A stretch of DNA of 49,017 bases, taken from assembly GCA_026415715.1 (NCBI GenBank), contig JAOAGO010000022.1, positions 1-49,017 of the forward strand, given 5' to 3'. The notes below the pieces were generated by a model. It was not told where the DNA came from, did not search any database, and saw only the letters and a list, made by a program, of their open reading frames with translations. Made by a program: the position numbers and the translations under genes. Below, in pieces: positions 12,155 through 30,040 of this stretch (its first letter is position 1; each line of letters opens with the position of its first letter). The DNA comes from Chitinophagaceae bacterium. Its GTDB lineage: Bacteria > Bacteroidota > Bacteroidia > Chitinophagales > Chitinophagaceae.

Positions 12155-14935
12155 TTAAATGCTTAATGCGGTTTCAATCAGTTCGGCCTGTTCCTGCAAA
12201 TGAATTTTGTAATGACCGGTGGCCGGTGAGGCTGAAGCCTGCCGGCTTACGATTCCGAAATGGAAATCTTTGAGATTCATTTGCAGATAGCAGGCAGCAC
12301 CCATGTTTAAGGGCTCTTCCTGCACCCAGAACCAGGTTGCTTTTTTATATTTTTCATACACGGATTCCAGTTGTTTCACCGGAAGCGGATACAACTGCTC
12401 CAGCCGGATGATGGCAATATCATCCCGTTTGTCTTTAATTCGTTTTTCATGCAATTCAAAAAATATTTTTCCGGAGCAAAACAACACTTTTGAAATTTTT
12501 TCAGGCACCGCCAGTTCATCATCCAGAACTTCCCGGAAGCTGCCTTCGGTGAATTCATTTAAAGCAGAATATGTATCGGGATGACGAAGATAGGCTTTGG
12601 GAGAAAAATTTAAAAGGGGTTTTCTGAAGGGCCACGCCACCTGCCGGCGCAGTGCATGAAAGTAGTTGGCCGCGGTGGTGATGTTGGTTACCACCATGTT
12701 GAGTTCTGCACAGAGTTGCAAAAAACGTTCTATGCGGGCGCTGCTGTGTTCCGGCCCTTGCCCTTCGTAGCCGTGAGGCAGTAAAAGAGTTACCCCGTTC
12801 ATGCGGTTCCATTTCTGCTCGCCGGCCGAAATGAACTGATCAATGATAATCTGAGCCCCGTTGGCAAAATCGCCAAACTGCGCTTCCCAGATGACCAGTG
12901 CATTGGGATTGGCCAAAGCATAACCATATTCAAATCCCAAAACAGCATATTCACTGAGCAGTGAATTATAAATTCTGAATTTGGCTTTGGCGCCGGGAAT
13001 ATGATTCAGCCGGTTATAGGGCTTGTTGGTTTCTTCATCTCTTAGCTCTGCGTGACGATGCGAAAATGTGCCTCTGCGCACATCCTGACCACTCATCCTG
13101 ACGTCTTTTCCTTCCAGTAATAAAGAACCGAAAGCCAACAGCTCGGCAGTAGCCCAATCTACTTTATTTTCCGTTTGAAACAGACGAACTTTATCCTGCA
13201 AAATTTTTTCTACTTTACGAAGAGGCTTAAAGTCTGCCGGCCACTTCATGATGGCGTCAAATACCGTCAAAAACTGTTCTTTAGTTATTGCCGTTACGGG
13301 AGATTTTTCAAAATCTTCGGGTGTGGCTTTACGCAGTTTTTTCCATTCCAGTTCGGGTGGTTGATAGTGATAAGGGAGCGGATTTTGTTTTACTTCGTTT
13401 AATCGTTCCTGTAAGTCTTCCCAGAATTTTTTTTCCATTTCTTTTGCCAGGCTCTGGGCCTCATCATCTCCGTTTTCAAGCAGATACCTGACATATACTT
13501 CCCGGGGATTAGGATGTTTATCTATCAGGGCGTAAAGGTGCGGTTGGGTAAATTTCGGATCATCGCCTTCGTTGTGGCCATGACGTCGGTAACACACCAT
13601 GTCAATAAATACATCCGAGTGAAACTCCTGTCGGTAACGGGTAGCGATTTCTACGCATTTTACTACAGCTTCGGGGTCATCGCCGTTCACATGAAATACC
13701 GGCGCCTGAATGGCGGCAGCCAGCGAAGTACAGTAGTCAGAACTTCGGGCATCATCAAAATCTGTGGTGAAACCGATTTGGTTGTTGATTACAAAATGGA
13801 TGGTACCGCCTGTATAATATCCTTTCAGATAGCTCATCTGAATCAGTTCATAAACAATTCCCTGCCCGGCAATGGAAGCGTCTCCATGAATCAGTATCGG
13901 AAGAATTTTATCAAACTCGCTTTGATACATTACATCGGCTTTAGCCCGCGCAAATCCGGCAACAACGGGATTTACGGCTTCCAGATGAGAAGGGTTGGGC
14001 ATGAGCTTTAGATGAATTTTTTTGTTTTCCGGGGTAACAATTTCACTGCCGAAACCCAAGTGATATTTCACATCGCCGCTGCCCATGGTTTGATCCATCT
14101 TGCTGACGCCTTCAAATTCGCTGAAGATTTGTTCATATGTTTTGCCGAGAATGTTAGCCAGAACATTCAATCGTCCCCGGTGCGCCATGCCGATAACCAC
14201 CTCATGTACATCATTTTGCGCAGCCGTGTTAATGATGGCGTCCAAAGCCGGTATGGTGGTTTCGCCTCCTTCCAGCGAAAATCGTTTCTGGCCTACGTAT
14301 TTTGTATGCAGAAATTTCTCAAAGATGACTCCCTGATTCAATTTTTCAAGAATTCTTCGCCTTTTTTCCAGGGGCAAGGGCTCCTGCATGGTTTGTTCTA
14401 TGGCATGGGTAAGCCAATCAATTTTTTTCTGGTCGCTGATGTATTTGAATTCAATGCCTACGTGATGAGCGTAGCATTTTTCCAGAAAGGTCAGAATATT
14501 TCGCAGCGTGGTTTTGCCAAGACCGATCATGTGTCCGGTCAGAAATTCAGAGTCCAGGTCATTTTCGGAAAAACCGAAAAAAGATAATTCCAGATTTGCA
14601 CCCCGATCTTTTCGTTTTCGTATGGGATTTGTTTTGGCAATGAGATGTCCTTTATTGCGATATCCCAGAATTAAGCGATATACATTCAGTTCTTTTTTTA
14701 ACTGGTCAAACGTCAGTTCATCGCTTGTCCTTTCACTCAGGTGTTCCGTGACTTTTGGCACTTCGGCAGTGCCGGCGGGCTTTCCGTTTTGTAAGGCATA
14801 GTTTATGGCAAAATCAAAACCTTCAAAAAATTTCTTCAGGTCAGGATCAACGCTGTCGGGATTTTGCAGATAATCTTTGTACAAACTTTCAATATACGCA
14901 GGGGATGAACCGGTTATATACGAAAAATCCTTCAT
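12155..14935 (-). CDS. sucA: 2-oxoglutarate dehydrogenase E1 component
   Basis: This thiamine-diphosphate-dependent decarboxylase supplies the succinyl group to the E2 encoded next to it. About 926 residues, close to the 933 of E. coli. Visible blocks include the N-terminal [17 protein letters not shown] segment, which is characteristic of OdhA/Suc[12 protein letters not shown], and the ThDP-binding region [12 protein letters not shown] near residue 415. The C-terminal transketolase-like half contains [29 protein letters not shown] at 14935 is preferred over an ATG 9 bp upstream because this N-terminus matches the family. Two one-mismatch -7 candidates lie on the minus strand near 14971-14989, too weak to choose between. 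Confidence 0.96.
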
Positions 14936-20049: not shown

Positions 20050-20673
20050 ATGAACTGGAAAGAAAAATTTCCGCACTTTGAACCCGAATTGACGGAACTT
20101 ATAGAAAGAGAAGGGGTATTTAAAACATTCAGAGCAGGAGATATCATCATGCGGACAGGCCAGTATATCAAGTCTACCGTACTGGTGCTGGAAGGACGGA
20201 TAAAAATTTACAGGGAAAATCCCGACGGGGGAGAATTTCTGATGTATTATCTGGGCCCGGGTCAGGCTTGTGCCGTTTCTATGATTTGCGCCATACAATC
20301 GGCCACCAGCGAGGTTATGGCCAAGGCAGAAGAAGAAACGGAAGTGCTGATGATTCCTGTGCATCTGATGGACGATCTGATGAAGGAATATAAAAGCTGG
20401 CATCAGTTTGTCATTCAAACCTACAGAAGCCGATTTGACGAATTATTGTCTGTTATAGATAATATTGCGTTTCACAATATGGATGAGCGGCTTGAGTTTT
20501 ATCTGAAACGTCACGTTTCAGTATCCGGAAAAAAAACTATACAGGTTTCACATCAGCAGATAGCGGATGATTTAAACAGTTCCCGTGAAGTGATATCCCG
20601 ATTGCTCAAAAAAATGGAACAACAAAATAAAGTGAAATTGCATCGTAACATGATAGAATGGACCGAAGCGTAA
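20050..20673 (+). CDS. Crp/Fnr-family transcriptional regulator, likely master of the sulfur island
   Basis: A 207-residue regulator with an N-terminal cyclic-nucleotide-like beta-roll (residues 25-115, containing VLEGRIKIYREN and YYLGPGQAC), a dimerisation helix, and a C-terminal winged helix (residues 160-207). The recognition helix reads NSSREVISRLLKKME. Arg179, Glu180 and Arg184 align with Arg180, Glu181 and Arg185 of E. coli CRP, which contact TGTGA. Two cysteines, Cys74 and Cys80, lie in the region corresponding to the CRP ligand pocket, and the classic cAMP-binding signature is absent. It has no N-terminal four-Cys cluster like Fnr. It directly precedes tauE and the sulfur genes, whose promoters carry TGTGA palindromes. 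Redox or persulfide sensing through the two cysteines is inference only. Confidence 0.9.
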   Translation: MNWKEKFPHFEPELTELIEREGVFKTFRAGDIIMRTGQYIKSTVLVLEGRIKIYRENPDGGEFLMYYLGPGQACAVSMICAIQSATSEVMAKAEEETEVLMIPVHLMDDLMKEYKSWHQFVIQTYRSRFDELLSVIDNIAFHNMDERLEFYLKRHVSVSGKKTIQVSHQQIADDLNSSREVISRLLKKMEQQNKVKLHRNMIEWTEA

Positions 20674-20676
20674 CCC

Positions 20677-20692
20677 TGTGATTTGAGTCACT
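20677..20692 (+). promoter_or_regulatory. Crp-like operator 1, before tauE
   Basis: TGTGATTTGAGTCACT is a TGTGA-N6-TCACT palindrome. Its centre (20684.5) lies 33 bp upstream of the centre of TAATCTTG (20714-20721), a -7 element with one mismatch. It begins 3 bp after the Crp/Fnr stop codon. The spacing fits a class II activator site near -41. Confidence 0.75.
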
Positions 20693-20737
20693 GTAAACCC
20701 GCTGCAAGCAGCCTAATCTTGCAGAAAATTTTCCAAC

Positions 20738-21550
20738 ATGGAAATCCTGGGCTATGCAGCATCATTGCTGATTGGTATTTCTTTAGGCTTGATTGGCGGC
20801 GGAGGTTCCATTCTTACAGTTCCCGTATTGGTTTATCTTTTCCGTGTTGATCCTGTTTTAGCTACGGCATATTCGTTATTTATCGTAGGTGCTACCAGTC
20901 TGGTAGGCGCTTATCCCAAATACAAGTCGGGCGAACTGGATATCAGAACGGCCGTCATTTTTGGTATTCCCTCAATTGCAGCGGTTTTTGCTACCAGAAA
21001 GTTTATTATACCGGCTCTGCCGCAAAAGTTATTAACAATTGGCGGATTTACACTTACCAAGCCTCTCTTTCTGATGATTTTGTTTGCCGTGCTCATGATA
21101 TCGGCATCCTACTCTATGATAAAGAATAATGGCTTATCCGGCGATGAGGAAACCCCAGAACGAAGATTTAATTACCCTTTGATATTTCTGGAAGGCATTG
21201 TGGTAGGGGTGTTAACAGGTTTGGTAGGCGCCGGCGGGGGGTTTCTCATCATTCCGGCATTGGTATTGTTAAGTAAGCTGCCAATGAAGCAGGCAGTCGG
21301 AACTTCGTTGTTAATTATTGCAGCCAAATCGCTGATAGGTTTTATTGGCGACCTTTCATCGCAAAAAATGGATTGGCCATTATTACTTTCTATCACGGCA
21401 CTTGCTATTGCAGGCATATTTTTGGGAAATCATCTTAGTAAAAAAATATCCTCCGGAAGACTGAAAAAGGTTTTTGGTTGGTTTGTATTGGTAATGGGGA
21501 TTTATATTTTAATAAAGGAAATCTTTTTTTCAGGAAACTTAAATCATTAA
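20738..21550 (+). CDS. TauE/SafE-family sulfite/organosulfur permease
   Basis: An inner-membrane protein of 270 residues with about eight predicted helices in two inverted repeats. Each repeat carries the glycine-rich family signature: GLIGGGGSILTVP near residue 20 and GLVGAGGGFLIIP near residue 165. TauE/SafE proteins are linked to export of sulfite, sulfoacetate and other sulfur anions; a TauE gene also sits in the persulfide-responsive cst locus of Staphylococcus aureus. Here it lies between the Crp/Fnr regulator and a CstB-like persulfide dioxygenase and has its own operator at 20677. I infer release of sulfite or thiosulfate made in the cytoplasm; the direction and substrate are not visible in the sequence. 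Confidence 0.88.
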   Translation: MEILGYAASLLIGISLGLIGGGGSILTVPVLVYLFRVDPVLATAYSLFIVGATSLVGAYPKYKSGELDIRTAVIFGIPSIAAVFATRKFIIPALPQKLLTIGGFTLTKPLFLMILFAVLMISASYSMIKNNGLSGDEETPERRFNYPLIFLEGIVVGVLTGLVGAGGGFLIIPALVLLSKLPMKQAVGTSLLIIAAKSLIGFIGDLSSQKMDWPLLLSITALAIAGIFLGNHLSKKISSGRLKKVFGWFVLVMGIYILIKEIFFSGNLNH

Positions 21551-21554
21551 TTTT

Positions 21555-21570
21555 TGTGATGAACGTCACC
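21555..21570 (+). promoter_or_regulatory. Crp-like operator 2, before the CstB-like gene
   Basis: TGTGATGAACGTCACC is a TGTGA-N6-TCACC palindrome. Its centre (21562.5) is 33 bp upstream of the centre of GAACTTTG (21592-21599), a -7 element with one mismatch. This is the same geometry as operator 1. The CstB-like ATG follows at 21637. Confidence 0.78.
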
Positions 21571-21636
21571 GTAACGGAAGCAAATTCTTGTGAACTTTGA
21601 ATATCTAAATATTTCATCATTTAAAAATAAATAACT

Positions 21637-23043
21637 ATGTATTTTCAGCACATTTACGACAAAACATTAGCACAGGCAAGTTATTTTATTGGTTGTCAGG
21701 CAGCCGGCGTAGCCGCCGTTATTGATCCGCAAAGAGACGTGGATATTTACCTGGAAATTGCCCGGCAAAACAAAATGAAAATTACACACATATTTGAAAC
21801 ACATATTCATGCCGATTTTCTGACCGGTTCAAGAGAACTGGCTGCTTTAACAGGCGCCGAATTGTACCTCTCCGATGAAGGAGGGCCGGACTGGCAATAT
21901 GAATTTCCACACCATGGACTCAAAGATGGTGATATTGTAAAAGTAGGGAACCTCAAGATTGAAGTCATGCATACCCCGGGTCATACTCCGGAAAGTATTA
22001 GTTTTTTACTTACCGATCTTCCGGCGAGTGAAGAACCGGTTATGATTTTTACCGGCGATTTCGTTTTTGTCGGAGACATCGGACGTCCCGATTTGCTGGA
22101 AAAGGCCGCCGGTTTTAAAGGAACCCAAGATGCCGGAGCAAGACAAATGTTTAAATCCATACAGCGATTTGCCCAATTACCGGATCATATTCAGGTATGG
22201 CCGGGACATGGCGCCGGTTCAGCCTGCGGGAAAGCTTTGGGAGCTGTGCCCAGCTCTACCGTAGGGTATGAAAAAAAGAGAAACTGGGCATTTAAATACC
22301 TGAATGATGAAGAAGGATTTGTAAAATATCTCCTGACCGACCAACCCGAACCGCCTAAGTATTTTGCCATGATGAAGAAGCTGAACAAAGTAAATCGTCC
22401 GCTTCTTACTGAAGTTCCTAAATTAAAAAAAATATCACTGGCCGAGCTCAAGGAAGCTTTGCAAAAAAATTATCCAGTAGTTGATACAAGAAATAAAGCA
22501 GAGTATTCAAAAGGATATATTCCCGGAACACTCAACATTCAGGGTAATAACTCATTTGCCACATGGTGCGGTTGGTTTCTGGACTATCAAACACCCTTTG
22601 TACTTATAGCCGATGAGTCGCAACTTGAAGATCTGACCCGAAAACTGATGCGCATCGGATTGGATAATATTTACGGATATTTCCCGGTTTCTTCCCTTAC
22701 GGAATGGGAAACTAAAGGCGGAAAACTGGAAAAAGTAAATCTTCTGACCATAGAAGAATTCAAATCGTTGCACGATAAAAATAACATTCAGGTTGTGGAT
22801 TTGCGTGGTGAAGTGGAATACAAAAGCGGTCACCTGAAAGGCGCCGATCATATTTTTGTAGGTACTCTCCCGGAAAATCTTTCAAAAATCAATAAGGATA
22901 AAAAAGTAGTTGTTCATTGTCAGGGAGGCGACAGGGCCGCCATTGGATATTCCATACTGGCAAAAAATGGTTTTTCCAACATTTACAATTTTTCCGGGGG
23001 TATCAATGAGTGGATAAGTCAGGGATATTCACTTGAATCCTGA
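21637..23043 (+). CDS. CstB-like persulfide dioxygenase / rhodanese fusion
   Basis: A 468-residue fusion. Residues 1-255 are a metallo-beta-lactamase-fold persulfide dioxygenase (ETHE1/CstB type): THIHADF (His56, His58, Asp60), HTPGHTPES (His116), FTGDFVFVGD (Asp141) and WPGHGAGS (His191). The usual second DH histidine is replaced by Phe61, as expected for a mononuclear iron site. Residues 265-360 form a rhodanese fold lacking the active-site cysteine loop (FVLIADES instead), so a pseudo-rhodanese. Residues 370-465 form a second rhodanese with a Cys loop CQGGDRA (Cys428). This three-domain order matches S. aureus CstB, which turns low-molecular-weight persulfides into thiosulfate. It heads a run of sulfurtransferase genes and has its own operator at 21555. 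Cytoplasmic. Confidence 0.88.
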   Translation: MYFQHIYDKTLAQASYFIGCQAAGVAAVIDPQRDVDIYLEIARQNKMKITHIFETHIHADFLTGSRELAALTGAELYLSDEGGPDWQYEFPHHGLKDGDIVKVGNLKIEVMHTPGHTPESISFLLTDLPASEEPVMIFTGDFVFVGDIGRPDLLEKAAGFKGTQDAGARQMFKSIQRFAQLPDHIQVWPGHGAGSACGKALGAVPSSTVGYEKKRNWAFKYLNDEEGFVKYLLTDQPEPPKYFAMMKKLNKVNRPLLTEVPKLKKISLAELKEALQKNYPVVDTRNKAEYSKGYIPGTLNIQGNNSFATWCGWFLDYQTPFVLIADESQLEDLTRKLMRIGLDNIYGYFPVSSLTEWETKGGKLEKVNLLTIEEFKSLHDKNNIQVVDLRGEVEYKSGHLKGADHIFVGTLPENLSKINKDKKVVVHCQGGDRAAIGYSILAKNGFSNIYNFSGGINEWISQGYSLES

Positions 23044-23083
23044 TTCTCTAAACATTTTAATGACTTATTAAAACTTTTTAATT

Positions 23084-23365
23084 ATGAAAACTCTTAAAGA
23101 AATAGTAAAAGATGCTTCGGCTACTATAGTGGATGTAAGAAGCACCTGGGAATATGCCTCAGATCATATTCCCGGGGCCCTTAATATTCCGCTGGAGGAA
23201 ATCAGTTATCGTCTGGCCGAGTTCAGGCAAATGAAAAAACCGGTGGTTTTGTATTGTCGTAGCGGAAATCGCAGTGGCATGGCCATGAGTATTCTCAGGC
23301 AGAATGGTTTGACTGAGGTTTACAATGGCGGAGGAATTGAAGATATGCGATATTTATTAAATTAA
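23084..23365 (+). CDS. Single-domain rhodanese (cytoplasmic), first of three
   Basis: A compact sulfurtransferase of 93 residues that forms a persulfide on its active-site Cys58 in YCRSGNRSG, a six-residue loop typical of GlpE/PspE-type rhodaneses acting on thiosulfate or persulfides. Upstream motifs IVDVRSTWEY and HIPGALNIP are canonical. There is no signal peptide, so it is cytoplasmic. It lies 40 bp after the CstB-like gene and 16 bp before a second rhodanese, clearly in one operon. The natural donor and acceptor are not known. Confidence 0.93.
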   Translation: MKTLKEIVKDASATIVDVRSTWEYASDHIPGALNIPLEEISYRLAEFRQMKKPVVLYCRSGNRSGMAMSILRQNGLTEVYNGGGIEDMRYLLN

Positions 23366-23381
23366 AACAACAGATCATTTC

Positions 23382-23696
23382 ATGTTTAAATTTCTGGAAA
23401 AACTGCTGGGTAAAACATCCGTAAATTACCGGCAGCTCCTCCGTCAAGGAGCAATAATTATAGATGTACGTACGCCGGCAGAGTACAGGGAAGGACATAT
23501 AAAAGAATCAATCAATATTCCTTTAGATACGATTCGCAGTAAAGTTCAAGAAATAAAAAGCAAAAACAAGCCTGTGATTACGGTTTGTCGAAGCGGAAAC
23601 CGAAGCGCGGTGGCAAAAAGTATTTTGAAATCAGCCGGAATAGAGGCATACAACGGAGGCGGTTGGCAATCATTACTGGCAAAACTAAATGGATAA
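23382..23696 (+). CDS. Single-domain rhodanese (cytoplasmic), second of three
   Basis: A 104-residue rhodanese with IIDVRTPAEYREGHI and the catalytic loop VCRSGNRSA (Cys69). A short N-terminal extension (MFKFLEKLLGKTS) is amphipathic and has no clear export signal. It is recognisably a paralog of the preceding gene (shared CRSGNRS loop and NGGG near the C-terminus), so local duplication is likely. Its stop codon directly abuts the start of the third rhodanese gene. Confidence 0.92.
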   Translation: MFKFLEKLLGKTSVNYRQLLRQGAIIIDVRTPAEYREGHIKESINIPLDTIRSKVQEIKSKNKPVITVCRSGNRSAVAKSILKSAGIEAYNGGGWQSLLAKLNG

Positions 23697-24128
23697 ATGA
23701 GGAAAGTTAACTCACTCGATTCCTCCAATTTATTTTCACGAGCCGGTAGGAGGTTCATGGTTATGCATTTTTCTTTACTGTTAATGCTACTGTGGTGTTG
23801 CGGGCAAACCAAACAATTGCCCGGCAGTATCGATGCTGCACAGTTCAAAGAGATGTTGAAAAAGAATAACGTTGTACTGATTGACGTACGTACACCAGAG
23901 GAATTTTCACAGGGTCATATTCCCGGAGCCCGTATGATTGACTATCTCCAAACGGAAACATTCCGTAAAGAGTTAAACCGTTTGGACAAAAACAAAACGT
24001 ATCTGTTGTATTGCCGCAGCGGAAACCGAAGTAAACAGGCGATGCAGGAAATGATACAATCAGGTTTTAAAAATGTTTATGAACTGAAAGGAGGTATTAA
24101 ATCCTGGCCGGGCGAATTGGTAAAATAG
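23697..24128 (+). CDS. Exported rhodanese (probable lipoprotein), third of three
   Basis: A 143-residue rhodanese: VLIDVRTPEEFSQGHIPGARMI and catalytic loop YCRSGNRSK (Cys106). Unlike its two neighbours it carries a hydrophobic segment (residues 23-33, HFSLLLMLLW) preceded by RR and followed by two cysteines (CCGQTKQ), which looks like an export signal and possibly a lipobox, although the site is not a perfect match. The first ATG abuts the previous stop codon. A second in-frame ATG at 23757 is preceded by AGGAGG and could be the true start; both give the signal. Location is therefore probably periplasmic, so the triplet may serve both sides of the inner membrane. Confidence 0.86.
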   Translation: MRKVNSLDSSNLFSRAGRRFMVMHFSLLLMLLWCCGQTKQLPGSIDAAQFKEMLKKNNVVLIDVRTPEEFSQGHIPGARMIDYLQTETFRKELNRLDKNKTYLLYCRSGNRSKQAMQEMIQSGFKNVYELKGGIKSWPGELVK

Positions 24129-24135
24129 AAACATC

Positions 24136-24564
24136 ATGAAAAAGATAATTCTTCTTTTATTGACGTTAACGGTTGTTCTGGGTGGGCAGGCCCAGAAACC
24201 AACAAACAGAAAAAAAACATATAAAATTATTTTTCAACTGAACTCTCCTGATACTCTGGCATGGAAAGGATTAATAAATAATTTGAAAAATCTGAAAGCC
24301 GGATGGGGCGACAGCGTTATGATGGCAGTTGTGGCTCACGGCCCGGGCCTGGATTTTCTCGTAAAAGACAAAACCACTCAGTACGAACGAATTGTTTTTT
24401 TTAAAAATCAGGGGGTAGAATTTATAGCCTGTGAGAATACGATGACTGAGCGAAATATTCCGAAAGAAAAAATTATGCCCGAAGCCTCTTTCGTAAAAAT
24501 GGGTATTGCCGAAATTGTACGACGTCAGGAAAACGGGTGGACATATATAAAAGCCGGATTTTAA
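24136..24564 (+). CDS. Exported DsrE-family sulfur-carrier-like protein
   Basis: A 142-residue protein with a signal peptide (MKKIILLLLTLTVVLGGQAQ) followed by a DsrE/DsrF-like fold: YKIIFQLNSPD, then VMMAVVAHGPGLDFL, and the segment VEFIACENTM with a conserved Cys99, the residue that can carry sulfur in this family. The mature protein appears to have a single cysteine. It begins 7 bp after the exported rhodanese, so a periplasmic sulfur relay between the two is plausible but inferred. Such exported DsrE-like proteins are common beside sulfur genes in Bacteroidota, without an assigned reaction. Confidence 0.82.
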   Translation: MKKIILLLLTLTVVLGGQAQKPTNRKKTYKIIFQLNSPDTLAWKGLINNLKNLKAGWGDSVMMAVVAHGPGLDFLVKDKTTQYERIVFFKNQGVEFIACENTMTERNIPKEKIMPEASFVKMGIAEIVRRQENGWTYIKAGF

Positions 24565-24625
24565 CCGGTATCATCTTCTTTGCACTTACATAGCCATTTA
24601 AAAATTAGAGAACAGTACTTATTGT

Positions 24626-26044
24626 ATGAACAAAATACTGATTACTATACTTTATACATTCATCTCTTTTACGTTCGTTTTTTCGCAGCATCAGGAGTTG
24701 AATGAAAAACCGGCCATTTGGAAATCCAAAGATCACGAAGCAGACAGCAACTCCCTCTTATCTGCTTTTAAAAAAGGGGTTGTCAGCGGACATTTCCGTT
24801 ACTTTTTCATGGCCACAGACAATACATCCGGCCTTTCCGATTATTATGCCAACGCCTTTGGCGGGGGAATCAAATATGAAACAGCACCCTTCAAACATTT
24901 TCAACTGGGGGTAAGCGGTTTTTTTATTTACAATATTGGCTCTTCCCCGTTGCACCGACCGGACCCACATACACAACAAATGAATCGTTACGAAATCGGA
25001 CTTTTTGATATCCAGGATCCTCTGAATAAAAATGATATAGACCGGCTGGAAGAGTTTTACTTACGCTACATTCATCGTAATGTAAATATTACTTTCGGAA
25101 AACAACTCATAAATACACCTTTTATAAATCTTCAGGACGGTAGAATGAGGCCAACAGAAGTAGAAGGATTGTGGATAGAGTACACAGATTCTCAAAAAAT
25201 AAGTGCTCATGCCGGTTATATATATAGAATCTCTCCCCGAAGTACTGTAAAGTGGTTCAGCGTGGCCGAATCAATCGGTATTTATCCTTCCGGCGTAAAT
25301 CCGGATGGCACTCGTTCCGGATATCCGGGTAATCTGAACAGCAAAGGAATTTTTCTGGCCAATTTCTCCTTTCCGGTTTCAAAAAACTGGCGGATTCAGT
25401 TTTGGAATCAGTTTACCGAAAATATTTTTAACAGTGCATTTCTGGGATTACAGTTTGATAAAAATTTAGCTAAGCAAACTAAGTTCAGGTTTGAAGCGCA
25501 AGCTATACGGCAGGATGCAGTGAAAGACGGAGGCAATAAGGATGCTTCCAAAACTTATTTTGAAAAAAATGGAAAGGCCTTCACATTTGGTTTTAAAACC
25601 GGACTGCTTCAAAACAAGTCGGAATATTCATTCAGTTACAACCGAATCACAAAAGCCGGCCGCTATCTGATGCCCAGAGAGTGGGGAAGAGACCCTTTCT
25701 TTACCTTTATGCCAAGAGAACGTAATGAAGGCTTAGCCGATGTACATGCAGTGGTTGTGGCAGGCAAACGAAAATTTTTAAAATCCGGATTCACCGCTTC
25801 TCTGGCTTATGGGGGATTTGACCTGCCGCAGGCTGCCGATTTCAGGAAAAACAAATACGGTATGCCCTCCTACCATCAGTTGAATATTGATCTGCAACAT
25901 AAATTCAAAGGATTTTTAAAAGGATTGGAGGCACAGTTTCTTTATGTTTATAAAAGAAATACCGAAAAAAATGTCGCTGAAAAATATTTGTTCAATAAGG
26001 CCGATATGAGCTTATGGAATGTGGTGTTTAATTACCGGTTTTAA
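24626..26044 (+). CDS. OprD-like outer-membrane porin
   Basis: A 472-residue outer-membrane beta-barrel. A signal peptide (to about residue 20, VFSQ) is followed by alternating amphipathic strands rich in aromatic residues, and the chain ends NVVFNYRF with a C-terminal Phe, as in barrel proteins. The segment HFRYFFMATDNTSGLSDYYA and the pattern LEEFYLRYIHRNVNITFGKQL resemble the OprD/DcaP porin group. It stands 61 bp after the DsrE-like gene in the same transcription unit and before the soxB-like unit. I infer passage of small sulfur anions or other organic anions; selectivity cannot be read from the sequence. Confidence 0.78.
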   Translation: MNKILITILYTFISFTFVFSQHQELNEKPAIWKSKDHEADSNSLLSAFKKGVVSGHFRYFFMATDNTSGLSDYYANAFGGGIKYETAPFKHFQLGVSGFFIYNIGSSPLHRPDPHTQQMNRYEIGLFDIQDPLNKNDIDRLEEFYLRYIHRNVNITFGKQLINTPFINLQDGRMRPTEVEGLWIEYTDSQKISAHAGYIYRISPRSTVKWFSVAESIGIYPSGVNPDGTRSGYPGNLNSKGIFLANFSFPVSKNWRIQFWNQFTENIFNSAFLGLQFDKNLAKQTKFRFEAQAIRQDAVKDGGNKDASKTYFEKNGKAFTFGFKTGLLQNKSEYSFSYNRITKAGRYLMPREWGRDPFFTFMPRERNEGLADVHAVVVAGKRKFLKSGFTASLAYGGFDLPQAADFRKNKYGMPSYHQLNIDLQHKFKGFLKGLEAQFLYVYKRNTEKNVAEKYLFNKADMSLWNVVFNYRF

Positions 26045-26051
26045 CCGGCAA

Positions 26052-26067
26052 TGTGATTTCAGTCACA
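26052..26067 (+). promoter_or_regulatory. Crp-like operator 3, before the SoxB-like gene
   Basis: TGTGATTTCAGTCACA has perfectly complementary arms, TGTGA-N6-TCACA. It begins 8 bp after the porin stop codon. The sequence 33 bp downstream of its centre (GAGTTTTA, 26089-26096) is a poor -7 match, which fits a promoter that needs an activator. The SoxB-like ATG is at 26123. Confidence 0.78.
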
Positions 26068-26122
26068 TTTCGGTTTTGGATGTTTCCTGAGTTTTAAATT
26101 TTATTTCCGGAAACTAAAGAGA

Positions 26123-27832
26123 ATGATGCAAAACGCGGTATTAAACAGTAAACAACCCACACGAAGAAATTTTCTGAAAAAAGTATCATTGGCCGGAGTG
26201 GCCATAACTCTCGGAAAAAACACAGCTTTGACACAATCGGACACAAAAGAAGAAGGTCGTACCGAAGAAGTATCCGGTTCAGGTCATATTACTATTCTTT
26301 ACACAGCCGATATTCATGCACAATTGAATACGCATGATGAATTTTTTTGGGAAAACGGAAAGCCGGTTTATAAAAAAAGAGGGGGATTGGCAGTATTGAA
26401 AACCATGATTGATTTTTACCGGAAACAAAACCCCAAAGGGACATTATTAATAGATGGAGGTGATTTTTTTCACGGAAGCGCAGTGGCCTCGCTTACGGAA
26501 GGCGAAGCCCTTATACCAGTGATGAACGCCTTTGAATATGACCTGATTCTTCCGGGAAACTGGGAGGTGGTTTACAAAAAGAAAAAAATGCTGCATGATA
26601 TGGGGCATACAACAGCCGCCAAAATCTGCGCCAACATGTGGCATAAAAGTAATGATGAAAATAACGGCGAGTTGATTTTTCCTCCTTACTGGGTAAAATA
26701 TATTGCCGGAATTAAAGCCGGGTTTATCGGTTATACTGACCATTTGATTCCCAAAAGGCAATCGCCGGCATACAGTGAGGGGATACGTTTTGAACATGCT
26801 ACCTACAATGTGGCAAAATACATTCGTTTTTTGCGCGAAGTAGAAGGTTGTCATTTAGTATGCTTGGTAACCCATATGGGTTTAGCCCAGCAGGTAGCCC
26901 TGGGTAACAGTCCGGAAGTACAAGGGGTAGATTTTATTCTGGGGGCTGATACACATGAAAGGGTAAGAACCCCTATAGAATGCAAGTATGCCAAAGTGAT
27001 TGAATGCGGAGCTTTCGGGTCCTTTTTAGGAAAGCTGGATATTTATATGCAAAACGGAAGGATAAAGCATTATCGCTATGAATTGCTGGATGTAGATCCA
27101 AAGCGATATCCTCCGGATAAAACCATACAGGCGCTCATTGATAACATACAGACACCTTTCAAAAAGCAACTTTCGCGGGTTATTGGCACTACTACTACGC
27201 CGCTGGTACGTTATTTTGTTTTGGAAACTCCCATGGACAATTTAATTACGGATGCCATAAAATGGAAATTTAAACCGGATATTGCCTTAAGCAACGGGTT
27301 TCGTTTTTGTCAGCCATTAGCCATTCCACCCGGAAAATCCAAAGCAGAAATTACAAAAGAATTTTTGTGGAATATGTTGCCGGTGGACAGCGAAGTAAAA
27401 AGAGGAGTCGTTACCGGCGCCCAGCTTTGGGACTGGCTTGAGAAAGAGCTTCAAAATGCCTTCGCCAAAGACCCTTCCAAACGACTGGGCGGCTGGTTTG
27501 TGAGATACTCCGGGATGCAGGTAAATTTTACAATTGGAAATGAATTTGGCAAACGGGTGAACTGGGTGAAAGTGAATGGAGAACCCCTGGATTTGAAAAA
27601 AGAATATACTATTGTAGCCTGTGAACGGGAAGGCGATCCTGATGATACATTATGCCGTATGGAAAAAATAAAATATCCGCAAAAATTAGGAATGCTGATG
27701 CATGATGTAATTGAGGAATATCTGGCCGTACACTCTCCCGTTTCTCCTCGTCAGGAACAAAGAGCTATAGCCACTGATCAACCAATGACTTTATTAACCC
27801 AACTTCAAGGCACAACCTATGAATTCAGATAA
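26123..27832 (+). CDS. Tat-exported SoxB-like metallohydrolase (5'-nucleotidase family)
   Basis: A 569-residue member of the SoxB/UshA metallophosphoesterase family. The N-terminus carries a twin-arginine signal, TRRNFLKK (13-20) followed by VSLAGVAITL. Metal-site residues are YTADIHAQ (Asp63, His65), IDGGDFFHG (Asp114), GNWEVVY (Asn146), VTHMG (His251) and GADTHER (Asp276, His278). In UshA the GNHE motif provides Asn plus the catalytic His; in SoxB it is HWE. Here it is GNWE: the metal Asn is kept but the catalytic His is Trp, as in SoxB. SoxB hydrolyses sulfate from a thiosulfonate-loaded carrier. The context (TsdA-like cytochrome overlapping by 14 bp, rhodaneses, YeeE pair) supports a sulfur role over nucleotidase. 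No SoxYZ carrier is nearby, so the substrate is uncertain. Confidence 0.8.
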   Translation: MMQNAVLNSKQPTRRNFLKKVSLAGVAITLGKNTALTQSDTKEEGRTEEVSGSGHITILYTADIHAQLNTHDEFFWENGKPVYKKRGGLAVLKTMIDFYRKQNPKGTLLIDGGDFFHGSAVASLTEGEALIPVMNAFEYDLILPGNWEVVYKKKKMLHDMGHTTAAKICANMWHKSNDENNGELIFPPYWVKYIAGIKAGFIGYTDHLIPKRQSPAYSEGIRFEHATYNVAKYIRFLREVEGCHLVCLVTHMGLAQQVALGNSPEVQGVDFILGADTHERVRTPIECKYAKVIECGAFGSFLGKLDIYMQNGRIKHYRYELLDVDPKRYPPDKTIQALIDNIQTPFKKQLSRVIGTTTTPLVRYFVLETPMDNLITDAIKWKFKPDIALSNGFRFCQPLAIPPGKSKAEITKEFLWNMLPVDSEVKRGVVTGAQLWDWLEKELQNAFAKDPSKRLGGWFVRYSGMQVNFTIGNEFGKRVNWVKVNGEPLDLKKEYTIVACEREGDPDDTLCRMEKIKYPQKLGMLMHDVIEEYLAVHSPVSPRQEQRAIATDQPMTLLTQLQGTTYEFR

Positions 27833-28859
27833 AAAATTTAATTTTTTGTACACTGTGAAATCAAACTGGCCCCTGGTTTTGATTTCAGGAGCTACCGCAT
27901 TAATGCTAGGTAGTGAAATAGTTGGTGCAGTAAAGAAAGACAGCCCTAAGGAAGAGATTTCAAAGGATTCGGTAAATTTATGGAACCCACCCAGCTTATT
28001 CACAGATACAGAATTAAAAGGGGAAGAAAGGGAACTAGTCATTTATGGAGAAGATCTTATTGCCAATACGGCTAAATATTTAGGGCCTAAGGGCTCGGTA
28101 GCTCAGATTTCAAATGGTATGAACTGCCAAAACTGTCATCTGAACGCCGGGAAAAAAAACTGGGGAAACAACTACAGTGCGGTTTATTCAACTTATCCGA
28201 AATACAGAGACCGAAGCGGTACAATTGAAAGTATCTATAAAAGAGTTAGCGATTGTTTTGAAAGAAGCCTGAACGGCAAGGCGCCGGACAGCAACAGCCG
28301 TGAATATCAGGCAATTTATGCCTATATAAAATGGCTTGGGAAAGATGTAAAAAAAGGAGAAAAACCTCACGGAAGCGGAATTCCCAAAATACCTTTTCTT
28401 GACAGAGCAGCAGACCCCGCAAAGGGAAAAGTAGTTTACGAAAAATATTGTCAGTCTTGTCATGGAGCTAACGGAGAAGGAGTGCCCGACGGCAACGGAA
28501 TAGGATATGTTTATCCGCCATTGTGGGGTCCGAATAGTTATAATGACGGTGCCGGACTATTCAGGCTAAGTTTTTTTGCCGGTTATGTAAAAAGCAACAT
28601 GCCCCAAAATCAGGCAACCCACGAAAATCCGGTGCTAACCACCGAAGAGGCATGGGATGTTGCCGCTTATGTGAACAGCCAGCCTCGCCCCAAAAAAGAT
28701 TTGAGCAAAGACTGGCCCGACATTTCCAAAAAACCTTTTGATCATCCTTACGGGCCTTATACCGACGGTTTTACTGAAAAACAACACAAATACGGACCTT
28801 TCAAACCCATCATAGAAAAAAGGGAAGCAATGGCTAAAGCGGGTAACAAAGCAATGTGA
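27819..28859 (+). CDS. TsdA-like diheme cytochrome c (thiosulfate dehydrogenase family)
   Basis: A 346-residue diheme c-type cytochrome with an N-terminal membrane segment (residues 17-36) that acts as signal or anchor. Heme 1 site is NCQNCHLNAG (CxxCH at 103-107); heme 2 site is YCQSCHGANGEG (211-215), with Met261 in NMPQNQ as a likely axial ligand. The segment KRVSDCFERSLNG places Cys146 where TsdA enzymes have the unusual axial Cys ligand of heme 1. TsdA couples two thiosulfates to tetrathionate, reversibly. The reading frame overlaps the end of the SoxB-like gene by 14 bp, implying coupled translation. I call it TsdA-like from motif order; the catalytic direction, and whether thiosulfate is the substrate, are inference. 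Confidence 0.82.
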   Translation: MNSDKKFNFLYTVKSNWPLVLISGATALMLGSEIVGAVKKDSPKEEISKDSVNLWNPPSLFTDTELKGEERELVIYGEDLIANTAKYLGPKGSVAQISNGMNCQNCHLNAGKKNWGNNYSAVYSTYPKYRDRSGTIESIYKRVSDCFERSLNGKAPDSNSREYQAIYAYIKWLGKDVKKGEKPHGSGIPKIPFLDRAADPAKGKVVYEKYCQSCHGANGEGVPDGNGIGYVYPPLWGPNSYNDGAGLFRLSFFAGYVKSNMPQNQATHENPVLTTEEAWDVAAYVNSQPRPKKDLSKDWPDISKKPFDHPYGPYTDGFTEKQHKYGPFKPIIEKREAMAKAGNKAM

Positions 28860-28870
28860 CAGGAATCACG
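28855..28870 (+). promoter_or_regulatory. Crp-like operator 4, before the YeeE pair
   Basis: TGTGACAGGAATCACG is a TGTGA-N6-TCACG palindrome that includes the stop codon of the TsdA-like gene. Its centre (28862.5) is 34 bp upstream of the centre of CAATTTTG (28893-28900), a -7 element with one mismatch. The first YeeE ATG is at 28925. Confidence 0.75.
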
Positions 28871-28924
28871 TTTTTAAATTACTTCATTGATACAATTTTG
28901 TAACAGAAATTAAAAACCAACAAT

Positions 28925-29485
28925 ATGGAATTTTTACAAAAACCCTGGCCTTGGTATATTGCCGGCCCTCTGATTGGTTTAACCGTGCCGGTTTTATTAT
29001 TGCTTGGAAATAAATCTTTCGGCATTTCGTCATCTTTACGACATGTATGCGCTGCTTGCATGCCTTCGAACATTCCTTTTTTTAAGTATGATTGGAAAAA
29101 GGAGGCGTGGAATTTGTTTTTTGTCGGGGGAATTTTTATCGGCGGTGTGATTGCTGGATTGTTTTTCCATCATTCCGGCCCGATTCAGCTAAATCCCAGG
29201 CTTACCGAAGAATTAGCCGGTTATGGTATAACTCAATATGAGGGTTTGGTACCATCCCAGATTTTTTCGTGGAGCCAATTATTAACTCCCCGGGGACTAA
29301 TCATGATGGTTCTCGGCGGATTTTTAGTAGGATTCGGCACCCGATACGCCGGAGGCTGTACTTCCGGGCATGCCATAATGGGATTAAGCAATTTGCAATG
29401 GCCTTCGCTTGTGGCGACCTGCTGTTTTATGGCCGGCGGTTTTTTAATGGCTAATCTGATATTACCACTGATTTTAAAACTTTAA
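28925..29485 (+). CDS. YeeE/YedE-type sulfur transporter, first half
   Basis: An inner-membrane protein of 186 residues with about four helices. It contains the sulfur-transport signature [16 protein letters not shown] (Cys145) and an additional pair in RHVCAACMP (Cys42, Cys45). In full-length YeeE (TsuA) proteins, a line of conserved cysteines passes thiosulfate across the membrane; such proteins are about twice this length. The next gene supplies the second half, so the two probably pair. It has its own operator at 28855. Import of thiosulfate or another sulfane-sulfur compound is the likely role. Confidence 0.87.
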
Positions 29486-29509: not shown

Positions 29510-30040
29510 ATGGAAACACTAAACACTTCTTCTGCAACATCACCTGTTGTTCTTGAGCATGATACGGATTTTGAAGTGCGTTCGGAAAATGCCATGTGTG
29601 TAAACTATTCCAAACTGGACAAACCCATTACTTCGCTTTTAAAATATGCCGTAGCCGGCATGGTATTTGGGATTGTTCTGGTGAAAGCAGAAGTGATTTC
29701 ATGGTATCGTATTCAGGAAATGTTCCGGTTACAAAGTTTTCATATGTATGGTCTCATCGGTTCGGCAGTAGCGGTAGGAATGCTCAGCGTTTGGTTGATT
29801 AAAAAATTCAACTTAAAATCAATTGAAGGAGAGCCTATAAAACTGGAACCTAAAAAGTTTAATAAAGGACAAATATTTGGGGGGCTTTTATTTGGTTTTG
29901 GCTGGGCGCTTACCGGCGCATGTCCGGGCCCGTTGTTTGCGCAAATCGGTTACGGGGCAACCGTGATAATTGTAACGCTTTTGAGTGCCATTGCAGGCAC
30001 CTGGGTTTACGGTAAATTAAGGCCAAAACTGCCGCATTAA
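29510..30040 (+). CDS. YeeE/YedE-type sulfur transporter, second half
   Basis: A 176-residue membrane protein with about four helices (DUF6691-type). After a 40-residue soluble N-terminus (with Cys30) come hydrophobic segments and the signature FGFGWALTGACPGPLFAQIG (Cys138), the counterpart of the GGCTSGH motif in its partner. It begins 24 bp after the first half and ends the sulfur island. The pair is best read as a heterodimeric transporter equivalent to one fused YeeE/YedE protein. Confidence 0.86.
   Translation: METLNTSSATSPVVLEHDTDFEVRSENAMCVNYSKLDKPITSLLKYAVAGMVFGIVLVKAEVISWYRIQEMFRLQSFHMYGLIGSAVAVGMLSVWLIKKFNLKSIEGEPIKLEPKKFNKGQIFGGLLFGFGWALTGACPGPLFAQIGYGATVIIVTLLSAIAGTWVYGKLRPKLPH

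Follow-up and report, generated by a model that had tools for sequence, protein, structure and literature searches.

How is the expression of genes for sulfide, persulfide and thiosulfate handling controlled in a Chitinophagaceae bacterium, and is the Crp/Fnr-type protein encoded beside them responsible? The genes lie on contig JAOAGO010000022.1 (assembly GCA_026415715.1), of which the 49,017 nucleotides analyzed are referred to here as the window. A preliminary description had reported four TGTGA-N6-TCAC palindromes in front of transcription units of this cluster and proposed that they define a sulfur regulon under the adjacent regulator, encoded at position 20050. Our analysis indicates that this protein is probably a dedicated activator of a regulon for the handling of sulfide, persulfide and thiosulfate. 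The sites, their geometry, their conservation, the targets, co-occurrence and covariation are read from sequence, and from these we infer binding, activation rather than repression, and the nature of the signal.

A pattern scan of the window yielded exact matches to TGTGA-N6-TCAC at the four sites (Table 1) and none elsewhere; site 3 is a full 16-bp palindrome and therefore matches on the minus strand as well. When the window was shuffled, the mean number of matches was 0.18 and the maximum two, and five matches were reached in none of 100 shuffles, which bears out the non-random character claimed for the four sites with their fixed 6-bp spacer. Sequences with at most two mismatches from the 16-mer are in slight excess only (24 in the window vs. 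15.7 by chance). The -7 elements reported 33-34 bp from the palindrome centres are all present, at an identical offset for sites 1 to 3 and 1 bp further for site 4. All four sites had been placed in intergenic gaps; this holds for sites 1 to 3, but in site 4 TGTGA shares bases with the cytochrome c stop codon. The sites had also been called co-oriented, a description that hangs on a single base because the palindrome is nearly symmetric and has almost no orientation; that base, the promoter-distal T, is present in 55 of 62 aligned target sites.

These 62 distinct strict sites, located upstream of tauE, CstB-like, soxB-like and yeeE1 genes in the 108 loci described below, were aligned without regard to the -7 box. 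The box nevertheless appears at a fixed place, with T+42 in 62, A+38 in 58, T+43 in 57 and G+44 in 49 of the 62 sites (positions relative to the palindrome). In the interval between palindrome and box only T+17 (39 sites) exceeds 60%, and no conserved -33-like element was found there in the 62 sites; the spacer diverges while the position-specific bases are kept. The sites are related by descent, yet the promoters of four different genes have an equal palindrome-box distance, the yeeE promoter of the window being one base longer. Class II CRP sites are centred at -41.5. The primary-sigma box TAnnTTTG of Flavobacterium psychrophilum spans -12 to -5 (PMC9723704), so a box at +37 to +44 puts the centre of the 16-bp palindrome at -41.5. 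The fixed -7 offset is thus consistent with a class II Crp-dependent promoter.

According to the proposed mechanism, a dimer of the regulator would bind palindromes of the TGTGAC-N4-GTCACA type centred near -41.5 (-42.5 before yeeE) and, once bound, would replace the missing -33 element and recruit RNA polymerase with the primary sigma factor. The predicted targets in the window are TauE, the CstB-like/rhodanese operon, the SoxB-like/TsdA-like pair and YeeE; those at unlinked loci would be SQR with thioredoxin, and a YgaP-like protein. Activation is favoured because no -33-like element is conserved. The sites might instead be operators of a repressor or dual regulator released by reactive sulfur, as the persulfide regulators CstR and SqrR, and also SoxR and sHdrR, are described as repressors (PMC9774590, PMC12423496), but a fixed position at -41.5 with no conserved -33-like element suits activation better, and we regard this alternative as distinctly unlikely.

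Conservation of the sites was assessed in 120 loci that surround regulator relatives: 40 came from a first set of relatives, and the others were the best 80 of a further 134 (Chitinophagaceae and other Bacteroidetes metagenome-assembled genomes, mostly Flavobacterium). Removal of loci with identical regulators left 108, the window included, of which 33 with a regulator at least 66% identical are referred to as Chitinophagaceae-type. Strict sites were counted within 150 bp upstream, and genes with less than 120 bp of upstream sequence were excluded. In the 33 loci such a site was present for 23 of 29 tauE, 18 of 28 CstB-like, all 10 SoxB-like and 6 of 20 yeeE1 genes. Control genes gave one site for rhdB (1/14) and none for murF (0/31), the regulator (0/33), rhdA (0/18), rhdC (0/8), dsrE (0/10), opr (0/9), cytochrome (0/11) and yeeE2 (0/21). 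The remaining genes contributed 8 sites in 207, before two thioredoxin genes, one SQR gene, two Dps-like genes, one DUF2202 gene and two copies of a gene for a Pfam-less protein (one copy per kind was tested for identity). The Dps-like and DUF2202 genes belong to relatives (L057, L065, L102) and carry the same kind of site, and therefore iron or oxidative-stress genes may join the regulon in some species.

The pattern extends to other clades. A weight matrix covering palindrome and -7 box, trained on 54 Chitinophagaceae sites and applied to 75 loci of other clades, mostly Flavobacterium, at a score of at least 8 matched upstream of tauE in 53 of 57 cases, of the CstB-like gene in 47 of 53, of rhdB in 12 of 13 and of the single cytochrome gene (1/1). 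Matches were rare or lacking for yeeE1 (2/41), the regulator (1/73), murF (0/9), rhdA (0/5), rhdC (0/53), yeeE2 (0/36), opr (0/1) and SoxB-like genes (0/1), and other genes had 8 in 806, which by eye are two thioredoxin-like genes, one SQR, four copies of one Flavobacterium HD-like gene and one unknown. The sites thus recur 5' of orthologous sulfur genes both in Chitinophagaceae-type loci and elsewhere. The strict motif is almost nil in Flavobacterium loci, but absence of sites was rejected as an explanation, as one-base hybrid sites occur instead. Among 165 non-Chitinophagaceae target promoters 49 have GTGA/TTAC, 50 GTAA/TCAC, 9 GTGA/TCAC and none GTAA/TTAC; 101 Chitinophagaceae-type target promoters comprise 65 with GTGA/TCAC and one with GTAA/TCAC. 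Examples of hybrid operators in Flavobacterium loci (e.g. L116, L119, L153, L173) are TGTGATAAATGTTAC upstream of tauE and TGTAACATTAGTCAC upstream of the CstB-like gene, each with one GTGA and one GTAA half, while the R-E recognition helix of the regulator (see below) is unchanged. A further matrix match in the window, at 14747 (score 14.4), has no convincing gene start behind it and is probably due to chance.

Could the palindromes be chance or inherited sequence without function? The bare motif gives this explanation some ground. Strict matches in the window genome (G000, 2.63 Mb in 96 contigs) number 23 and fall on 18 distinct places, 14 of them outside the window: 10 in coding frames, two before sulfur-linked genes and two at other non-coding places. 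Of the last two, one lies about 60-75 bp 5' of an ExbB-like gene (named by eye) with weak matrix scores, and the other (G000:C3:18449), considered as a promoter of a chromate-transporter-like gene (by eye), was rejected since it lies past the 3' ends of both neighbours. In 85 genomes the bare-motif counts are mostly close to those of a reversed-pattern control, and they were discarded as regulon evidence in favour of the composite of palindrome and -7 box. Many hits unrelated to sulfur, which the preliminary description had named as an outcome that would speak against a sulfur regulon, are therefore found for the bare motif: the nine bases alone are not specific genome-wide, and specificity comes only from motif plus position. 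Strict counts far above the reversed control were found in G014 (25 vs. 8) and G040 (26 vs. 1), of the same genus, and in G043 (112 vs. 33) and G047 (71 vs. 29), of the same family, which would fit a broader Crp-type regulon in these genomes.

The composite, a palindrome with the -7 box at the fixed offset, was counted in 144 genomes against the reversed pattern. It is enriched mainly in the 50 genomes that have a regulator orthologue of at least 50% identity (split in two in one of them), with 142 matches vs. 16 reversed and at least one match in 47; the 94 genomes without orthologue have 43 vs. 22, and at least one match in 31. Within the same genus the counts are 90 vs. 10 in 27 genomes with the orthologue and 5 vs. 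1 in 15 without. P values would mislead because the genomes are not independent. In the window genome itself the composite detects only sites 1 and 2 plus one other place, and sites 3 and 4 deviate from the composite at the -7 box. The expected tracking of the sites with the Crp/Fnr orthologue is thus observed, and a functionless origin is contradicted by this co-occurrence, by positional conservation over a diverging spacer, by the upstream-site counts in the 33 loci and by the transfer across clades; we consider it barely credible. In several relatives (L197, L198, L181, L190, L193) composite sites also lie 5' of Rrf2-type and outer-membrane efflux genes.

If the sites are real operators, which protein reads them? 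The recognition helix of the regulator, S-R-E-V-I-S-R, aligns with S-R-E-T-V-G-R of Escherichia coli CRP with R180, E181 and R185 kept, which confirms the Arg-Glu-x3-Arg motif first noted by inspection, and 107 of the 108 regulators carry such an R-E helix. Another 40 loci, of which 39 had a regulator match, comprised 14 with R-E helices and 24 with R-V helices, one helix not being recognised. GTGA-N6-TCAC occurs in 2 of 14 R-E and 0 of 24 R-V loci, and GTAA-N6-TTAC in 8 of 24 R-V loci (11 sites, at least one of them poor) and 0 of 14 R-E loci; six of the R-E loci hold distant paralogues without sulfur neighbours. GTAA/TTAC was also seen 5' of non-target genes in the 108 loci (4/347 and 6/984). 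Residues 180/181 have been linked to operator bases in HcpR, and the R-V/GTAA vs. R-E/GTGA pattern agrees with that link (PMC1274295). Seven loci (L230, L234, L242, L251, L253, L259, L265; regulators 38-46% identical) combine GTAAC-N4-GTTAC at the same -7 distance with an R-V-x3-R helix.

A different regulator would in principle be possible, as several Crp/Fnr proteins recognise the bare TGTGA palindrome, though nothing was found here in favour of one. The sole other Crp-type helix-turn-helix found in the genome (L025, contig 6, ~37.0-37.6 kb) belongs to a protein of 351 residues with receiver, cyclic-nucleotide-binding and Crp helix-turn-helix domains, whose recognition helix, A-T-E-S-L-I-R, is without the arginine, and the sites follow the regulator orthologue and its helix. 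We judge this explanation very improbable. The L025 gene adjoins Hsp20-like genes (named by eye).

Sites also occur 5' of genes for thioredoxin, SQR, an FCSD-like flavoprotein, a TPMT/TehB-like methyltransferase, a ResA-like thioredoxin and a YgaP-like protein, several of these names resting on similarity to one tested copy. One of the two sulfur-linked strict places outside the window lies in the region that separates a thioredoxin gene from an SQR gene, the other in the upstream region of a YgaP-like transmembrane gene (matrix score 20.2). An SQR from a relative resembles human mitochondrial SQOR (1e-126). SQR genes at least 67% identical to the query are preceded by a site with no more than one mismatch from the 16-mer in G039 (the locus from which the query came), G020, G010, G011 and G000. 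In G024 the site has two mismatches, in G009 there is none, and G008 ends at a contig edge. The more distant SQR genes of G098 and G096 showed no promoter site. Near-sites were found at four of eight genes of the second flavoprotein type. A sulfur regulon under these palindromes, as originally proposed, is thus well supported and includes unlinked sulfur genes, with the adjacent protein as its predicted regulator. The SQR gene of the window genome (L214, G000:C30:25943-26317) sits at the edge of a contig, close to which it contains a single in-frame TAA.

What signal might the regulator respond to? It consists of a cyclic-nucleotide-binding-fold domain followed by a Crp-type helix-turn-helix, as expected for the Crp/Fnr superfamily, and the fold matches agree. 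Seven NCBIfam models matched but none over its cut-off, including CRP (46 bits vs. 266) and Fnr (30 bits vs. 228). E72 and R82 of CRP are cAMP contacts; in the regulator E72 aligns with a gap and R82 with an alanine. The Fe-S oxygen sensor FNR has four cluster-binding cysteines, whereas the regulator holds only two, C74 and C80, both invariant in 37 of 37 aligned orthologues. The structure model (mean pLDDT, a per-residue confidence score, of 86, but ~70 around residues 71-90) places C80 in helix 75-83 and C74 immediately N-terminal to it. The pair of conserved cysteines and the loss of the cAMP contacts point tentatively to reactive sulfur or redox as the signal, which would be the likeliest because the only cysteines sit where the cAMP contacts of CRP were lost. 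The regulator is probably made steadily, since its gene lies 11 bp downstream of murF and is not preceded by a site in the Chitinophagaceae-type clade, and reactive sulfur (or redox) would act on C74/C80.

The main rival to a sulfur signal is a haem/NO signal as in HcpR or PgRsp. The regulon and geometry would be the same, but haem or some other cofactor would let the protein sense nitric oxide (NO), carbon monoxide, oxygen or redox, and a low-oxygen or nitrosative physiology would have the sulfur genes as one of its outputs. In the same phylum the Crp/Fnr proteins HcpR and PgRsp are haem-binding (PMC12040651), Porphyromonas gingivalis HcpR is among the fold matches of the regulator, the Desulfovibrio HcpR consensus is likewise TGTGA-N6-TCACA (PMC1274295), and Dps, DUF2202 and Rrf2 genes have sites in some relatives. 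However, the targets found are mostly sulfur and thioredoxin genes, no search having been made for hcp or NO-detoxification genes, and the invariant columns of the 37 orthologues include no ligand-domain histidine. We consider this rival rather unlikely. More specifically, and tentatively, the regulator may represent a Bacteroidota subfamily of Crp/Fnr proteins that detects persulfide or polysulfide through a C-x5-C dithiol at the former cAMP site. The subfamily would supply the class II master activator for the oxidation of sulfide and thiosulfate, and its operator would have shifted between GTGAC and GTAAC in parallel with one helix residue; this is possible, but on balance doubtful.

Besides the bare-motif counts, several observations weigh against an activator with the targets, operator and signal proposed. 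The yeeE sites are the least kept in Chitinophagaceae-type loci and are poorly kept in the other clades too. The thioredoxin-SQR site of the window genome has no good -7 box (scores 6.3 and 11.5). The YgaP-like site lies 159 bp from the gene start with a possible 30-codon frame between, and is overrun by a 541-codon open frame on the opposite strand, whose true start is uncertain. Two places in coding sequence score as high as 19.0 (L017) and 17.1 (L016), and therefore the matrix alone is not decisive; both were set aside as chance and not counted as targets. A palindromic site is absent from 16 of the 24 R-V loci, and the helix code is not strict, because hybrid sites with one GTAA half accompany R-E helices outside Chitinophagaceae. 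C74 is also found in six paralogues of 32-36% identity that have no sulfur genes as neighbours, and a clade of 38% identity, part of which has tauE or yeeE next to the regulator, lacks C80.

The system is composed of parts of known kinds, namely a Crp/Fnr protein, a CRP-like operator and class II spacing, and its proposed signal is hypothetical. The regulator resembles E. coli CRP at class II promoters in its fold, its R-E-x3-R helix, the TGTGA-N6-TCACA-type site and the apparent centre at -41.5, but is without CRP's cAMP contacts and would serve a small sulfur regulon with a TAnnTTTG-type -7 box. HcpR belongs to the same superfamily, and both operator types are described for it, wTGTGAnnnnnnTCACAw in Desulfovibrio and GTAACnnnnGTTAC for HcpR2 (PMC1274295); its targets are, however, hcp and nitrogen-oxide genes, in contrast to the sulfur genes here, and the P. 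gingivalis protein, a fold match, is only 17% identical. The best PDB sequence match (E 3e-22), also first by fold, is 3dv8, a Crp/Fnr protein of Eubacterium rectale with a C-x5-C in the same place, but it is 25% identical and its entry title names no function. CstR, SqrR/BigR, SoxR and FisR likewise control persulfide, SQR or thiosulfate genes by cysteine-based sensing of reactive sulfur (PMC9774590, PMC5823870, PMC12423496), but they belong to the CsoR, ArsR and Fis families and not to Crp/Fnr; in the literature consulted, sulfide and persulfide regulators are of the ArsR, CsoR, Fis, MarR and similar families. Titles and abstract openings among the matches listed mentioned no regulator of the Crp/Fnr type for these genes in Bacteroidota, the slash spelling 'CRP/FNR' not being matchable. 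If the proposal is true, Bacteroidota would gain a dedicated Crp/Fnr-type sulfur switch for which the protein is named, the operator defined and the promoter geometry exact; the signal hypothesis (C74/C80) and the specificity switch (Glu180) would become directly testable, and sulfur genes would be predictable in many Bacteroidota genomes from promoter sequence alone.

Table 1 Palindromic sites and genes of the sulfur locus in the window
Feature	Position	Strand	Remarks
Site 1, TGTGATTTGAGTCACT	20677..20692	+	5' of tauE; -7 box TAATCTTG at 20714-20721
Site 2, TGTGATGAACGTCACC	21555..21570	+	5' of CstB-like gene; -7 box GAACTTTG at 21592-21599
Site 3, TGTGATTTCAGTCACA	26052..26067	+	5' of SoxB-like gene; -7 box GAGTTTTA at 26089-26096
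Site 4, TGTGACAGGAATCACG	28855..28870	+	5' of YeeE pair; -7 box CAATTTTG at 28893-28900
Crp/Fnr-type regulator	20050..20673	+	Cyclic-nucleotide-binding fold and Crp helix-turn-helix; PF00027, PF13545, PF00325 over cut-off
TauE/SafE-family exporter	20738..21550	+	PF01925
CstB-like metallo-beta-lactamase with two rhodanese stretches (persulfide dioxygenase-like)	21637..23043	+	PDB 3tp9 (3e-126), 3r2u (2e-113)
Three rhodaneses	23084-23365, 23382-23696, 23697-24128	+	PF00581
DsrE-like protein	24136-24564	+	PF02635
Opr-family porin	24626..26044	+	PF03573
SoxB-like protein	26123..27832	+	Metallophos and 5'-nucleotidase C-terminal domains
TsdA-like cytochrome c	27819..28859	+	PDB 4wqc (5e-41)
Split YeeE/YedE sulfur transporter	28925-29485, 29510-30040	+	PF04143 in both parts

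Among the genes of the locus (Table 1), the SoxB-like protein scores 262 bits against the NCBIfam SoxB model TIGR04486, whose cut-off is 550, and is therefore labelled SoxB-like only. The three rhodanese genes and the DsrE-like gene probably form one operon with the CstB-like gene. The rhodaneses are single-domain proteins encoded in tandem (23084-24128) 3' of the CstB-like gene, which itself has two rhodanese stretches.

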